Position numbers and translations under genes: made by a program
Notes under the pieces: generated by a model
The model's database searches: none
What the model was told of the DNA's origin: nothing
What the model saw: the letters and a program-made list of their open reading frames with translations, nothing else
Shown: piece after piece, positions 13,923 to 19,380 of the stretch
How the letters are laid out: each line of letters opens with the position of its first letter
How positions within the stretch are numbered: the stretch's first letter is position 1
Assembly: GCA_021850485.1 (NCBI GenBank)
Contig: JAJZLY010000007.1
Location: forward strand, 1-64,000
Reading direction: 5' to 3'
Origin: Bacillota bacterium
GTDB lineage: Bacteria > Bacillota > Sulfobacillia > JAJZYS01 > JAJZLH01
Length of the DNA: 64,000 nucleotides

Positions 13923-14585
13923 CTAGAGGCGCCCTCTGAGTGCGATCTCCGCCCCATTCAGATCCGCACCCACATCACCGAGCAAAAAACGGATCAGCTG
14001 GGCGACCCGGCTGGTCTTCACCCAGCGATTCGGCTCTGCGTCTGGCATCGCCTGGCGGTTGGCAGGCGTGTCCAAGGTGGTGGGAAGGAGCGTGATCACG
14101 CTCACGCCATCTCCCTTCACCTCTTCCGCCACAGACTTCATAAAGCTGATCAGGGCGGCCTTGCTGGCGTTGTAGGCGGACTGATTGGCCGAGGACTTCA
14201 GGGCGGCAAACGCTCCCATGGCGATGATCCGTCCCGCCTTCGCCTTGCGCATGTCAGGCAGCACCTGACGCACCATCTCACCGGCCAGCAGGACATTTAA
14301 TCGCATCATGGCCTCCATGTCGGCGGCTGATGTCTCGAGCACCGGTCCGGCCTGATAGCCGCCAGCCAGATGGACCAGGCCGAAGACAGGGCCCCGCTCG
14401 GATCGGGCCACGTCCAAGGCGGCGGTCACCCGGCCAGGGTCGGCGAGGTCGACGGAGAACTCTGTGCCTGAACGGTCCAGTCCGCTCACGGCGGCACCAG
14501 CTGCACTCAGGGCGGCCACCACGTCCTTGCCGAGTGCACCGCCGGCGCCGGTCACCACCACGTGCGATCCCTTCAAATCGTCCAT
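13923..14585 (-). CDS. Short-chain dehydrogenase/reductase (SDR)
   Basis: The 220-residue enzyme has the SDR nucleotide-binding motif TGAGGALG (residues 12-19) and the catalytic pair YNASK (Tyr138, Lys142). It is a classical NAD(P)-dependent oxidoreductase of unknown substrate. I chose ATG 14585, which lies 5 bases after GGAGGCG. The open frame runs about 400 bases further upstream but there only mirrors the opposite-strand kinase gene. It diverges from the PfkB-type kinase, the two starts being about 30 bases apart. Confidence 0.85.
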   Translation of the reverse strand: MDDLKGSHVVVTGAGGALGKDVVAALSAAGAAVSGLDRSGTEFSVDLADPGRVTAALDVARSERGPVFGLVHLAGGYQAGPVLETSAADMEAMMRLNVLLAGEMVRQVLPDMRKAKAGRIIAMGAFAALKSSANQSAYNASKAALISFMKSVAEEVKGDGVSVITLLPTTLDTPANRQAMPDAEPNRWVKTSRVAQLIRFLLGDVGADLNGAEIALRGRL

Positions 14586-14616
14586 GCCATCGCCTCCAGT
14601 CGGGAGTGTGAGATCG

Positions 14617-15456
14617 GTGCAACTAGCCGTACTCGGAATGGCGGTCGAGGAGTCGTCGCATCTGCCCTCCGGCCGGTGGCTTAAGACGGTGGGCGGATCG
14701 GCCGTGAACGTGGCGATCGGCCTGCGGGTGTGGGGACTCGCACCGACCCTAGTGGTGGGCGGTAGCTCTAGAGCTCTCTCTCGCCTCAGACGGAGCGGCC
14801 TGTTCGGCCCCGGCCTGGTTGGGGTGGCCGGCACCGCGGTGACATCGGTGGTTGAAGTCGGTCTTGGCGGTGCCAGTAGGGTAGGATTCTCCGCCGCTGT
14901 CATCCCTCCCTTTGCCCAGTTGCCGGCGGCCGAGCTGGTGATCTTGTCCGGCTTCGACCTCCTGGCCGCTCCGGAGTTGTTCACGCAGACCATGGTGCGC
15001 CTTCACCAGGCCGGTTCTCAGCTGTGGCTGGATGCGGGACCGGCCGCTTTTCAGCCAGCGCTCCTAGTCCCCTGCCTTTCGGCAGTGGACGCTTTGTTCC
15101 TGAACCAAGAGGAGGCCATCGCCTTCACCGGCCTGCGCCAGCCAGGGCGCATCTTGGCCAAGATCCCAGTGCCGGAGGTGCACATCAAGCTGGGCGCCCT
15201 CGGCAGCGTGGCCAGGCGCCAGAACCTGACCGTCAGATCGGCGCCATTTGCGGCGCTGGCGGTTGACTCGACCGGCGCTGGAGACCTTTATCTGGCAGCC
15301 GCAGCCGCCACCCGCCACCTGCCGCTGGCGGCCAGTTTGGCCGCCGCCAACTTCCTGGGCGCCCGCTCCACCGAGGTGTGGGGGGCCGGTCTTCAGCTGG
15401 CAGGGCTGGTTTCGTCCGCCAGCACCGTTAACGGCTCTTCTCGCACCGAGGGCTGA
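14617..15456 (+). CDS. PfkB-family carbohydrate/nucleoside kinase
   Basis: The 279-residue protein is somewhat shorter than usual for the family. It has the N-terminal GG motif (VGGSAVNVA, residues 25-33) and the anion-hole/catalytic motif DSTGAGD (217-223, Asp223 the likely base). PfkB kinases phosphorylate sugars, nucleosides or vitamin precursors; the substrate is unknown. GTG 14617 is placed 10 bases after GGGAG; GTG 14608 is too close to it. Its last 64 bases overlap, tail to tail, the end of the JAMM peptidase gene on the other strand. Confidence 0.8.
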   Translation: MQLAVLGMAVEESSHLPSGRWLKTVGGSAVNVAIGLRVWGLAPTLVVGGSSRALSRLRRSGLFGPGLVGVAGTAVTSVVEVGLGGASRVGFSAAVIPPFAQLPAAELVILSGFDLLAAPELFTQTMVRLHQAGSQLWLDAGPAAFQPALLVPCLSAVDALFLNQEEAIAFTGLRQPGRILAKIPVPEVHIKLGALGSVARRQNLTVRSAPFAALAVDSTGAGDLYLAAAAATRHLPLAASLAAANFLGARSTEVWGAGLQLAGLVSSASTVNGSSRTEG

Positions 15457-15809
15457 TCGATCCAAAATCCACGGATCTCGGGGGTAGACGCGCGCAAAGA
15501 GGCGATCACGTATAGACACTGCGGGTAGAAGGCCTGTCGGATGTCTGTGACAGACGGCTCGGCTACGGTGGCCGGATGCGAGTGGCCAATGCCGACCAAA
15601 CTCTCCCCCAGCCGCTCCATCTCTCGGAGCACAGCCAGGATGCGCCCTGGATCCATCCGATAGGTGAGCGGGCTGTGGTCCATGTTCTCCAGCGGGTAAA
15701 AGGTGTCGATCTGACCCGGCTGCCCGCCGAACAAGCCACATGCCTCGTCTGGCCGCCGCACGAGCGCTTCGGCCAAAAAGGCGTCGACGGCAACTGCCTG
15801 CACGCGCAC
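15393..15809 (-). CDS. mec: JAMM/MPN+ metallopeptidase, Mec-like (CysO-cysteine peptidase)
   Basis: The 138-residue protein has the complete JAMM zinc motif: Glu22, then H76-x-H78-x7-S86-x2-D89 (GHSHPATVAEPSVTD). Mec of mycobacteria uses this fold to release cysteine from the C-terminus of the sulfur carrier CysO. The gene follows cysM by 4 bases, and the operon supplies the carrier and E1-like protein. The same activity is therefore a sound inference here. Because the carrier in this genome is fused to its E1, the peptidase might also cut that fusion. Start is GTG 15809. The 3' end overlaps the PfkB gene. Confidence 0.82.
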   Translation of the reverse strand: MRVQAVAVDAFLAEALVRRPDEACGLFGGQPGQIDTFYPLENMDHSPLTYRMDPGRILAVLREMERLGESLVGIGHSHPATVAEPSVTDIRQAFYPQCLYVIASLRASTPEIRGFWIDQPSVREEPLTVLADETSPAS

Positions 15810-15813
15810 CGCG

Positions 15814-16716
15814 CTACTCGTCCAGGACGCTCAGATAGCGCTCGCCTGAGTCTGGGAAGACGGTCACCACCACGGCTCCATCTGCTAAGTCCAAGGCCGC
15901 GGCACGGGCCGCCCAGGCAGCTGCACCGGCGGAGAGCCCGGCCAAAATCCCTTCTTGCCGGGCGAGCTGGCGGGCGGTGTCGACGGCATCTTGATCCGTG
16001 ACTGTTACCACCTGGTCGATCAGCGACCGGTCCAGCACCGCTGGCTCGAACCCTGCCCCCAGGCCGTCGATGCGGTGCACACCGGGGCGGCCGCCGGAGA
16101 GCACGGCCGAGCGCGCTGGCTCGACCGCCACGATCCGCAGTTTTGGCCGGCGTTGGCGCAAGGTGCGGCCGACCCCGGTCAGGGTCCCGCCGGTGCCCAC
16201 ACCCAGCACCAGGCAGTCGATCTCCCCGGCCGTATCGGTCCAGATCTCCTCGGCTGTGGTGTCCTGGTGGGCTTTGGGATTGGCTGGGTTGTCAAACTGG
16301 CGGACCGAGATCCCCCCGACTGCGACGGCCGTCTGTTGCGCCGCCCAGACGGCACCGCTCATCCCCTCTTTGGCCGGAGTCAGCTGCACCCGGGCGCCCA
16401 GCCAGCGCAAGAGGCGAATCCGTTCCGGCGTCATGTTCTCCGGCATGGTCAGGATCAGTTGATAGCCCAGGGCCGCCGCCGCCACGGCCAGGCCGATGCC
16501 CGTGTTGCCAGAGGTGGCCTCGACGATGGTGGCGCCTTTAGTCAGGGTGCCGTCTGCTTCCGCCTGGCGGATCATGGCCAACGCCGGCCGGTCCTTCACA
16601 CTGCCACCGGGGTTGAAGAATTCCAACTTGGCGTACAGGCGCACCTGCGGCGCCCACCGGGCCAGGCGCACCAACGGCGTGTGTCCGATGGTGTCTAAGA
16701 TGGTACGCTCGATCAT
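15814..16716 (-). CDS. cysM: Cysteine synthase, CysM type (PLP-dependent)
   Basis: This 300-residue fold-type II PLP enzyme has the Schiff-base lysine in NPGGSVKDR (Lys41) and the substrate loop SGNTG (69-73), plus the glycine-rich GVGTGGTLTGVG that binds the PLP phosphate. CysM enzymes replace the acetyl or phosphoryl group of an activated serine with sulfide or carrier-bound thiocarboxylate. In this operon a CysO-type thiocarboxylate is the likely sulfur donor. ATG 16716 overlaps the stop of the preceding gene (ATGA). The open frame continues upstream but only inside that gene. Confidence 0.92.
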   Translation of the reverse strand: MIERTILDTIGHTPLVRLARWAPQVRLYAKLEFFNPGGSVKDRPALAMIRQAEADGTLTKGATIVEATSGNTGIGLAVAAAALGYQLILTMPENMTPERIRLLRWLGARVQLTPAKEGMSGAVWAAQQTAVAVGGISVRQFDNPANPKAHQDTTAEEIWTDTAGEIDCLVLGVGTGGTLTGVGRTLRQRRPKLRIVAVEPARSAVLSGGRPGVHRIDGLGAGFEPAVLDRSLIDQVVTVTDQDAVDTARQLARQEGILAGLSAGAAAWAARAAALDLADGAVVVTVFPDSGERYLSVLDE

Positions 16717-18137
16717 ACCTTGTCCTGCCAGGGCAGATGAGCGTCCTGCCAAGCCAGCAGACCGCCGCGCAGATTGGCCGCCGGAATGCCGCTGTCCACT
16801 GCCACCAAGGCTGCGACCTGTGACTTCTGGCCAATTTCGCAAAAGAACACCACCCGGTCAGCTCGGCGAAGCTCCTCGAGATGGCCGGACAGCTCGTCGA
16901 TCGGCATCGAGATGGCGCCGGGAATGGTGCCAGCGGCGAAGACCGCCCTTGGCCGCACATCCACCCACAACACGCCTGGGCTCCCCAGCCGGGCCTGGGC
17001 GTCCTGCAGGCTGAGCTCTTCGGCACCGGGCGCATCCACGCCCCGGCGGGGCATCACCGAGCCACAGAAGGCGACATAATCAATGAGGCCGGTCTGGCTG
17101 GGATGATCTCCGCACAAGGCGCAGTCCGGCCGCCGCTGCCAGCGAAAGGTGCGGCTGACTCCGGCCAAAGCGTCCACCACCAGCAGCCGGTTGGCCAGGG
17201 TCTCCCCCACCCCCAGCAGCACCTTGATCGCCTCCAAGGCTTGGATCGAACCCATCTGCCCAGCCAATGCGCCCATCACGCCAGCCTCGGCACAAGACGG
17301 CACCGTGCCAGGCTCGGGAGGCGTCGGGAATAGGCAGCGATAGCAGCCCTTCCCCGGCATGAACACGGTGGCCTGACCCTCGAAGCGCAAGATGGAGGCA
17401 TCGATCAGCGGCTTTTTCAGCAGCACGCAGGCATCGTTGACCAGATAGCGGGTGGGAAAGTTGTCCGACCCGTTGACCACCAGGTCATAGGCCCCAATCA
17501 GTTCCAGAGCGTTATCGCGCTCCAGCACAACCGGATGGGCGATCACCGAGACATCCGGATTGAGGGCTGTGACGAACCGCTGAGCCGACGCAACCTTCGA
17601 GCCGCCAACATCTTGTTCGCGATGCAGCGGCTGGCGGTGCAAGTTGGAGCGATCCACCAAGTCGCCGTCCACAATGCCGATGGTGCCCACGCCGGCCGAG
17701 GCCAGGTACATGATCACGGGCGCCCCCAGGCCGCCGGCTCCCACCACCAGCACCCGGGAGGCGAGCAGCTTGCGCTGTCCGGGCATGCCCAGCTCGGGCA
17801 AGATGATCTGGCGCGAGTAGCGCTCCACCTGACTGGGCGACAGCAGGCGCACGCTCTGGCTGCCGCCGGCCATCGCCGGAATCAGCGCCAACTCCTCGCC
17901 GCCGCTCAGCGCGGTGTCCAAGCCGCTCAGGCTATGAATTTCGGTGTCGTCGACGTAGACGTTGAGATAGGCGGCCAACTGGCCCTGGGCATCGAACAGT
18001 TCATTGCCCAGGCCGGGCTGGCGCGCACAAAGGTCAGCCAACGCCTCGCCGACGGTGGCGCCATCGGCTGGCACCGTGGACTGGCCTGCGGTGTGCTTGC
18101 GATACGGGGTGGGGACATAGACGGAGACCTGGGCCAT
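16713..18137 (-). CDS. Fusion of CysO/MoaD-like sulfur carrier, MoeB/ThiF-type E1 enzyme and rhodanese
   Basis: Three domains occur in one 474-residue chain. Residues 1-92 form a ubiquitin-fold carrier ending in AMAGG (Gly91-Gly92). Residues about 105-345 form a MoeB/ThiF adenylyltransferase with the nucleotide loop GAGGLG (133-138), zinc ligands C265xxC268 and C339xxC342, and a candidate catalytic Cys282. Residues about 375-470 form a rhodanese domain with Cys433 (CEIGQKS). In mycobacteria CysO and MoeZ are separate, and the carrier needs a free C-terminal Gly-Gly. Here it is internal, so cleavage or an altered mechanism is needed. ATG 18137 follows GGAGG by 7 bases. It lies upstream of cysM and mec. 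Confidence 0.9.
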   Translation of the reverse strand: MAQVSVYVPTPYRKHTAGQSTVPADGATVGEALADLCARQPGLGNELFDAQGQLAAYLNVYVDDTEIHSLSGLDTALSGGEELALIPAMAGGSQSVRLLSPSQVERYSRQIILPELGMPGQRKLLASRVLVVGAGGLGAPVIMYLASAGVGTIGIVDGDLVDRSNLHRQPLHREQDVGGSKVASAQRFVTALNPDVSVIAHPVVLERDNALELIGAYDLVVNGSDNFPTRYLVNDACVLLKKPLIDASILRFEGQATVFMPGKGCYRCLFPTPPEPGTVPSCAEAGVMGALAGQMGSIQALEAIKVLLGVGETLANRLLVVDALAGVSRTFRWQRRPDCALCGDHPSQTGLIDYVAFCGSVMPRRGVDAPGAEELSLQDAQARLGSPGVLWVDVRPRAVFAAGTIPGAISMPIDELSGHLEELRRADRVVFFCEIGQKSQVAALVAVDSGIPAANLRGGLLAWQDAHLPWQDKV

Positions 18138-18139
18138 GG

Positions 18140-18529
18140 TCAAACCTCCTCGAAATAGGGCCGGATCGGACCGTCGTCAAAACAGCTGCCGGCGGCCAGC
18201 TGCATCTGGGCGAACTTGGGGCTCACCACAGGCATCCACAGGTGTTCCAGCCAGCGCGTCCGCTCGGCATCTGGGAGCTGCGCCAAGGCACTGACGGCGA
18301 TATGAATGGCATCGCCATCCGGCGAGATGCCAAAGTCCAAGCGAAAGCGGCCGGGCGCCACCAGCCGGCCGGCTGAAGCCGTGCGGTAGGCGCTGATCTG
18401 GGGGTCGTCCCGGTAGGCGTCCAAGACCTCGGGGTGAAACCAAATTGGGAACTGATGGTAGCTGTCCGGGCCAGCCGCACGCTTGAGGTAGGCTCTGACG
18501 AAGGGGTCCAGGGCCGGCTGGGTCGCCAT
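18140..18529 (-). CDS. Hypothetical protein in the sulfur-carrier operon
   Basis: This 129-residue soluble protein has no family I recognise. It is rich in aromatic and charged residues (FPIWFHPEVLDAYRDD, RFRLDFGISPDGDAIHI, LEHLWMPVVSPKF), contains a single Cys (in GSCFDDGP), and has no signal or membrane segment. Its ATG at 18529 is 2 bases after the stop of the rhodanese gene, and its stop lies just before the start of the carrier-E1 fusion. Such tight packing suggests a job in sulfur transfer or Cys synthesis. A longer frame to 18589 only overlaps the rhodanese gene. Confidence 0.75.
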   Translation of the reverse strand: MATQPALDPFVRAYLKRAAGPDSYHQFPIWFHPEVLDAYRDDPQISAYRTASAGRLVAPGRFRLDFGISPDGDAIHIAVSALAQLPDAERTRWLEHLWMPVVSPKFAQMQLAAGSCFDDGPIRPYFEEV

Positions 18530-18531
18530 TT

Positions 18532-19380
18532 TCAGCTGTCCAGGCCGCGCCGTACGGGCGTGCCAACCATGCTCCCCCACTCGGTCCAAGACCCGTCGTA
18601 GCTTTTCACGTCCGGGTAGCCGAGCAGTTCACGCAGCACGAACCAGGTGTGGGCAGAGCGCTCGCCAATGCGGCAGTAGGCGACGACCGGCTTATCCGCG
18701 ACGATGCCGCGGCGGCCGTAGATCTCACGCAGGTCGGACTCGGACTTGAATCGCCCGTCCGGCGAAACGGCCTCGGCCCAGGGAATGTTGACCGCGCCCG
18801 GAATATGCCCGCCGCGCTGGGCGGTCTCACTGAGACCGGGCGGCGCCAAGACTTCTCCGGTGAACTCTTTTTCCGAACGGACGTCGACCAGTGCCACCGC
18901 ACCCAGCTTGGCGAGCACCTCAGGCTGCAGGGCGCGCACCGACGGATCTTGCCTCGGCAGCGGGTAGCTAGACTTGGCCATCACTGTTGGCTCGGTGGTG
19001 TACGGCCGGCCGTCCCCTTCCCAGGCCTGGCGGCCTCCGTCCATCAGCGATACCGCCTGATGCCCATAGTAGGTGAGCTGCCAGTAGGCATAGGCGGCAA
19101 ACCAATTGGAGGCATCTCCGTACAACACCACATGGTCGCCGACACCGATGCCGGCCGCCGCCATCAGAGCGGCGAAGTCCTCAGGGCCAAGGACGTCGCG
19201 GCGGACTTGATCTTGCAGATCGGTGGTCCAGTTCCAGCCGACCGCCCCTTTGATGTGTCCTGCCTGATAGAGCGTGGGGTCGACATCGACTTCGACCAGC
19301 CTGACCCCGTCGTCCCAGCCATGCTCCGCTACCCAGGCGGTCGATACCAGAGCCGGGACTGTACCCTTGGCCACTTCCAT
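18532..19380 (-). CDS. sseA: Thiosulfate sulfurtransferase, tandem rhodanese (SseA-like)
   Basis: The 282-residue protein has two rhodanese domains. The N-terminal one (to about residue 130) lacks the active Cys. The C-terminal one carries it in AYCRIGERSAHTWF, the form found in actinobacterial CysA/SseA proteins. It moves sulfane sulfur, here probably feeding the carrier-E1-Cys pathway downstream. ATG 19380 follows AAGGAG by 3 bases. The open frame extends to 19461, but that part holds the promoter. It is the first gene of the operon sseA, unknown, carrier-E1, cysM, mec. Confidence 0.9.
   Translation of the reverse strand: MEVAKGTVPALVSTAWVAEHGWDDGVRLVEVDVDPTLYQAGHIKGAVGWNWTTDLQDQVRRDVLGPEDFAALMAAAGIGVGDHVVLYGDASNWFAAYAYWQLTYYGHQAVSLMDGGRQAWEGDGRPYTTEPTVMAKSSYPLPRQDPSVRALQPEVLAKLGAVALVDVRSEKEFTGEVLAPPGLSETAQRGGHIPGAVNIPWAEAVSPDGRFKSESDLREIYGRRGIVADKPVVAYCRIGERSAHTWFVLRELLGYPDVKSYDGSWTEWGSMVGTPVRRGLDS

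Follow-up and report, generated by a model that had tools for sequence, protein, structure and literature searches.

Adenylation of a sulfur carrier protein by an E1 activating enzyme requires a free glycine carboxylate on the carrier, as established for MoaD, ThiS, and CysO. In the HcyS/HcyD system of Wolinella and the QbsE/QbsD system of Pseudomonas, residues that follow the Gly-Gly of the carrier are removed by a JAMM peptidase. The operon described here is located at positions 15393-19380, on the minus strand, of a 64,000-nucleotide stretch of contig JAJZLY010000007.1 (assembly GCA_021850485.1; hereafter the window) from a Bacillota bacterium of the class Sulfobacillia, and it encodes a carrier that runs past its Gly-Gly into its own E1 enzyme, along with a JAMM peptidase. 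The sequence masking the Gly-Gly amounts to one or two residues in HcyS and QbsE versus a whole enzyme in this fusion.

The operon was compared with the closest described systems. With the mycobacterial CysO-MoeZR-CysM-Mec pathway (PMC3227635) it has in common a CysO-like carrier ending in Gly-Gly, an E1-rhodanese, a cysteine synthase, and a JAMM peptidase with its zinc ligands; it differs in the fusion of carrier to E1, in an E1 of the MoeBR rather than the MoeZR type, in a synthase of the CysK type rather than an O-phosphoserine CysM, and in the presence of CysE. The JAMM peptidase of Deinococcus cuts MoaD-MoaE (PMC8832034), and MoaX of Mycobacterium tuberculosis is functional only once it has been cut at Gly82-Ser83, the protease responsible having been unidentified at the time (PMC4326299). 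The window fusion resembles both in having an internal Gly-Gly ahead of a partner enzyme and, presumably, in needing a cut for function, and a JAMM gene is found in the same genome; its partner, however, is the activating enzyme itself, encoded in a cysteine operon. Iyer et al. described ThiS-ThiG and MoaD-MoaE fusions and this class of operon in 2006, and proposed that a JAB peptidase might cleave a fused ThiS or MoaD and so free its end (PMC1779556). Their operon types 4b and 4c contain ThiS/MoaD, E1-rhodanese, JAB, and cysteine synthase, as the window operon does, but the carrier is not fused to the E1. The same authors called the ubiquitin-like domain fused to Campylobacter-type ThiF distinct from ThiS; the window fusion is not of that type, since its attached domain is a ThiS family member with a Gly-Gly and the ThiS of the genome is fused to ThiG. 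Finally, the sections of a 2024 archaeal fusion census that treat these proteins (PMC11237513) place MoaD-MoeB fusions in Thaumarchaeota, with a bacterial form only in Rokubacteria and NC10, and rhodanese forms (MoaD-MoeBR) in other archaea, and give neither a mechanism nor a JAMM link for the bacterial form. The domain order in those sections, rhodanese form included, is that of the window fusion, and the range given there is extended here to Bacillota, Chloroflexota, Acidobacteriota, and Pseudomonadota. The initial annotation of the window regarded a precursor-like processing step of this kind as new, which holds in part: the idea of cutting, the MoaD-MoaE cut, and, from the census sections cited, the fusion type were already known. 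New here are the Gly-Gly-retaining fusion as sole E1, its spread, a genome with a single E1, a single JAMM, and three buried carriers, the loss of the Gly-Gly in a sister family, and the data on JAMM association.

The fusion gene (16713..18137) encodes 474 aa in one frame with no stop codon, and the protein matches the Pfam models ThiS (residues 7-92), ThiF (107-339), and Rhodanese (377-465), all over cut-off. The CysO-like carrier domain (residues 1-92; 17862..18137; ThiS E 7.4e-11) aligns from residue 4 to residue 92 with M. tuberculosis CysO (3dwg_C, E 1.1e-15). As reported in the initial annotation, Gly91-Gly92 (17862..17867), the putative site of cleavage and thiocarboxylation, is internal, with the E1 starting directly after it as SQSVRLLSPSQVERYSRQ. 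The E1 (MoeB/ThiF) domain (17103..17843; PF00899 E 7.3e-81) contains five cysteines that are invariant in the fusion alignment (Cys265, Cys268, Cys282, Cys339, and Cys342); both CXXC motifs, CYRC and CALC, are present and invariant, and by the rule that MoeZR-type enzymes have lost the second (PMC3227635) the sequence is of the MoeBR type. The C-terminal rhodanese domain (16716..17039; E 6.5e-14) has the loop CEIGQKS. Two congeners carry the fusion in the same operon at 81-85% identity, and an assembly artefact or missed stop as its origin was ruled out because the open frame is common to both.

The Gly-Gly was invariant in 18/18 and 26/26 aligned fusions, the 26 spanning five phyla, and its retention was not directly selected for, since the pattern used in the contig scan stopped at PAM, ahead of the Gly-Gly. 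The linker that follows is hypervariable in sequence and about 6 to 60 residues long. Structure prediction of the junction, put forward in the initial annotation as a check, gave residues 89-97 an AlphaFold pLDDT below 50 between confident domains, so the linker is predicted to be disordered; the nearest folds to the model were Uba4 and MoeB-MoaD. The residue after Gly92 is Ser, which would suit a self-cut of the fusion by an N-to-O acyl shift, and it could also be imagined that the fused E1 attacks its internal glycine by some novel chemistry. This pair of explanations is considered extremely improbable: relatives have S, A, E, Q, G, or T directly behind the Gly-Gly, with no conserved nucleophile, for which reason self-cleavage at Gly-Ser was rejected, and we know of no precedent for an E1 attacking a peptide bond.

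The JAMM/JAB metallopeptidase gene (15393..15809; PF14464, Prok-JAB, 73.6 bits) encodes a complete E-HxH-x7-S-x2-D motif. The zinc ligands credited to it in the initial annotation are all in place (E22, H76, H78, S86, and D89) and were invariant in 16 aligned sequences. Across the window assembly, which is 1.61 Mb and 97% complete, one E1 and one JAMM scored over cut-off, both in the window operon, and four ThiS-family carriers were found. In addition to the window fusion, these are a ThiS-ThiG fusion (G000:C2:332756-333721) with a buried Gly-Gly in ..TAMAGG followed by ADQLELAG.., a MoaD-MoaE fusion (G000:C20:67591-68313) with a buried Gly-Gly in ..PPVSGG followed by GQLITEQ.., both outside the window, and a free carrier ending in ..RAVSGG (locus L004/L148, 3158-3430). 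In all three members of the genus the free carrier gene adjoins one for a BNR-like repeat protein, and in one of them (L141) eight residues follow the Gly-Gly of the carrier. Both congeners have the same set of carriers, E1, and JAMM. Because the E1 is the only one in the cell and three carriers are buried, it must charge carriers whose ends lie inside three different proteins, and one JAMM plausibly frees all three. The process was initially viewed as self-contained in cysteine synthesis, a view that was not sustained, as the only JAMM and E1 of the genome must also serve the buried ThiS and MoaD.

As adenylation needs a free carboxylate, the uncut fusion would not be chargeable by known chemistry. 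The explanation favored here, which is judged to be probable, treats the fusion as a precursor in which the bond between Gly92 and Ser93 is hydrolysed by the operon's own JAMM peptidase. One product would be a CysO-like carrier whose Gly-Gly end is now free, the other an E1-rhodanese that keeps a short stub at its N terminus. The released E1 would then adenylate the carrier, and sulfane sulfur would pass from the upstream sulfurtransferase to the rhodanese domain and on to the carrier thiocarboxylate. The CysK-type enzyme would make cysteine from the carrier-bound sulfur, and the same JAMM would split carrier-cysteine, as Mec does. The E1/JAMM pair, being the only E1 and the only recognised JAMM of the cell, would have to do the same for the ThiS of ThiS-ThiG and the MoaD of MoaD-MoaE, releasing and charging each. 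The JAMM is held to free the carrier, the E1, ThiS, and MoaD because of the adenylation chemistry and the precedents of the Deinococcus JAMM and MoaX. The initial proposal of an obligatory cut behind the Gly-Gly, perhaps made by the JAMM, has good support from chemistry, published precedent, and comparative data, cleavage itself being inferred. A variant that appears unlikely is that the fusion is a zymogen in which the attached carrier tail blocks the E1 site in cis; the single JAMM would then be a master switch for cysteine, thiamin, and molybdenum-cofactor sulfur transfer together.

The comparative evidence comes from members of the class sorted by whether MoaD and MoaE form one protein or two, with ambiguous cases checked in sequence. 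A JAMM match was termed strong at 40 bits or more, a line set after a gap in the scores was seen. Strong JAMM was found in 48/50 genomes with fused MoaD-MoaE, the two without being 81% and 77% complete, versus 1/38 genomes with separate proteins (Fisher p 3e-21); that one (G015) carries a CysO-E1 fusion. Counted by family, the figures were 20/21 versus 1/5 (p 0.0016). Separate MoaD ended exactly at the Gly-Gly in all nine split cases inspected, and three families (f10, f46, and f47) have separate MoaD and MoaE, MoaD ending at the Gly-Gly where inspected, and no strong JAMM.

These counts bear on whether the cut after Gly92 is made by another protease, the JAMM being confined, like Mec in mycobacteria, to the carrier-cysteine adduct. 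Such a division would fit the known separate role of Mec (PMC3227635) and the fact that PMC4326299 did not identify the protease cutting MoaX. However, among genomes without a recognised CysO-like carrier, defined by a rough threshold, strong JAMM still tracked the buried MoaD Gly-Gly (17/18 with fused versus 0/36 with separate MoaD-MoaE), and the Deinococcus JAMM was shown cutting MoaD-MoaE (PMC8832034), so that involvement of another protease is regarded as quite improbable. In two genomes (G090 and G091) the MoaD-MoaE fusion was the only carrier found and strong JAMM was still kept; a need to free the buried Gly-Gly, if true, explains why.

In family f4, which belongs to the same order (L009, L014-L022), the fused carrier-like domain is kept and the Gly-Gly is lost, the domain ending, for example, in VSIGPYPLKAMTPREAERYARQ. 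The f4 fusions are sister to those of the window genus (joint support 100/96; f4 97/95) and still adjoin a JAMM gene, and the f4 genomes still have MoaD-MoaE fusions. They show the fate of such a fusion once release is given up. They also lend weight to the idea that the chain stays whole in the window organism, the attached carrier only docking on or stabilising the E1 while sulfur rides on the fourth, free carrier beside the BNR-like repeat gene, and Iyer et al. gave the ubiquitin-like domain of the Campylobacter-type ThiF fusion another role (PMC1779556). Such docking is nevertheless highly improbable for the window fusion, given that every other fusion, across five phyla, retains the Gly-Gly, for which a pure docking domain would have no need, and that this genome also buries its ThiS and MoaD.

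A database search for further carrier-MoeB fusions, which had been suggested with the initial annotation, found the fusion to be recurrent. With its Gly-Gly it was present in 23/154 class genomes, 22 of which have strong JAMM, within about 3 kb of the fusion in 21; fusions were therefore not equally common without a JAMM gene, an outcome named beforehand as speaking against the JAMM link. In G087, whose fusion contig breaks off within the synthase gene, the JAMM is on a different contig; no strong JAMM was found in the 77% complete genome G138. When GTDB contigs were scanned, 39 loci were recovered, several of the Bacillota ones being from the same genomes as the class survey, and fusions were placed outside the class in metagenome-assembled genomes of Chloroflexota, Methylomirabilota, Acidobacteriota, Pseudomonadota, and Syntrophomonadaceae. 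Among the fusion genomes that were checked because no JAMM was seen at their locus, three again had no strong match: locus L118 runs off its contig, the L127 assembly is 1.3 Mb, and L133 may be a true exception. Many non-Bacillota loci have, in order, CysK, a fusion without rhodanese, a second free carrier, CysM, and JAMM, and in L107, the only one in which it was checked, the CysM is of the M. tuberculosis type. In related loci of Chloroflexota and Methylomirabilota (L105-L138), free CysO-like carriers mostly have 1-31 residues after the Gly-Gly (GGA, GGR, or longer) and would also need trimming. JAMM adjacency alone was set aside as proof of processing, as free CysO-like loci carry JAMM as well. 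In the E1 tree, the Gly-Gly-fusion label changes at least 4 times on well-supported branches, a count that is approximate because one fusion (L008) was miscalled as free at a contig edge.

The five genes of the operon have the order, place, and strand given in the initial annotation, namely a tandem-rhodanese sulfurtransferase, a 129-aa orphan, the carrier-E1-rhodanese fusion, a cysteine synthase, and the JAMM peptidase. They are spaced by overlaps or gaps of a few bases, so a single transcript is likely; a promoter and terminator scan of the operon gave the same counts as shuffled sequence. The synthase (15814..16716), initially named CysM, proved instead to be of the CysK type: it scored 392 bits with TIGR01139 (cut-off 351) and 293 with the cysM model (cut-off 394), lacks the M. 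tuberculosis CysM motif ...EPRYGEGVYALRNMDEGF, and resembles O-acetylserine enzymes, and CysE (serine acetyltransferase) is encoded in the genome. The mycobacterial O-phosphoserine/CysM reaction is therefore not simply transferable. A separate mycobacterial-type CysM was not found among the PLP-fold genes of the genome; three such genes were present elsewhere, two dehydratase-like and a third that is probably TrpB-like from its weaker score, and the window enzyme appears to be the only cysteine synthase. The sulfurtransferase (282 aa; 18532..19380) has two rhodanese stretches (Pfam E 3.9e-32) and the active loop CRIGERS, scored 123 bits with a mercaptopyruvate sulfurtransferase model, under its cut-off, and is the probable sulfur source. 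The orphan (129 aa; 18140..18529), between the sulfurtransferase and the fusion, had no Pfam or NCBIfam match and, from a modest AlphaFold model (pLDDT 70), no fold match; His76 and Cys116 are invariant in its alignment, and it is possibly a sulfur relay protein. In families f1, f11, and f33 it is found at the corresponding place in the operon. A PfkB-like sugar kinase frame, named by eye from the sequence (window 14464-15456, plus strand), converges on the JAMM gene, whose 3' end it overlaps by about 60 bases.

Several points weigh against release of the carrier by the JAMM. The support for cleavage lies at the level of chemistry, precedent, and genome comparison, and the genome-level JAMM association was corrected for shared ancestry only in part, by the family count. 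Since a CysO pathway would in any case be expected to include a JAMM for cysteine release, adjacency alone proves little. With a CysK-type synthase and CysE present, use of carrier sulfur by the synthase is the weakest step of the scheme, and the fourth carrier of the genome is free. Family f4 indicates that the fused domain can be useful without release; the fusion alone is therefore no proof of it.

With buried Gly-Gly carriers that need a JAMM, the 2006 proposal can be put to the test by comparing genomes and by simple biochemistry. If the precursor explanation is true, a single E1 and a single deubiquitinase-like peptidase serve three sulfur-insertion pathways, the E1 being synthesized as a portion of its own substrate, and carriers that form the front half of other proteins must be cut free before cysteine, vitamin B1, and molybdenum cofactor can be synthesized. 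The arrangement would then be a compact bacterial parallel to ubiquitin precursors.

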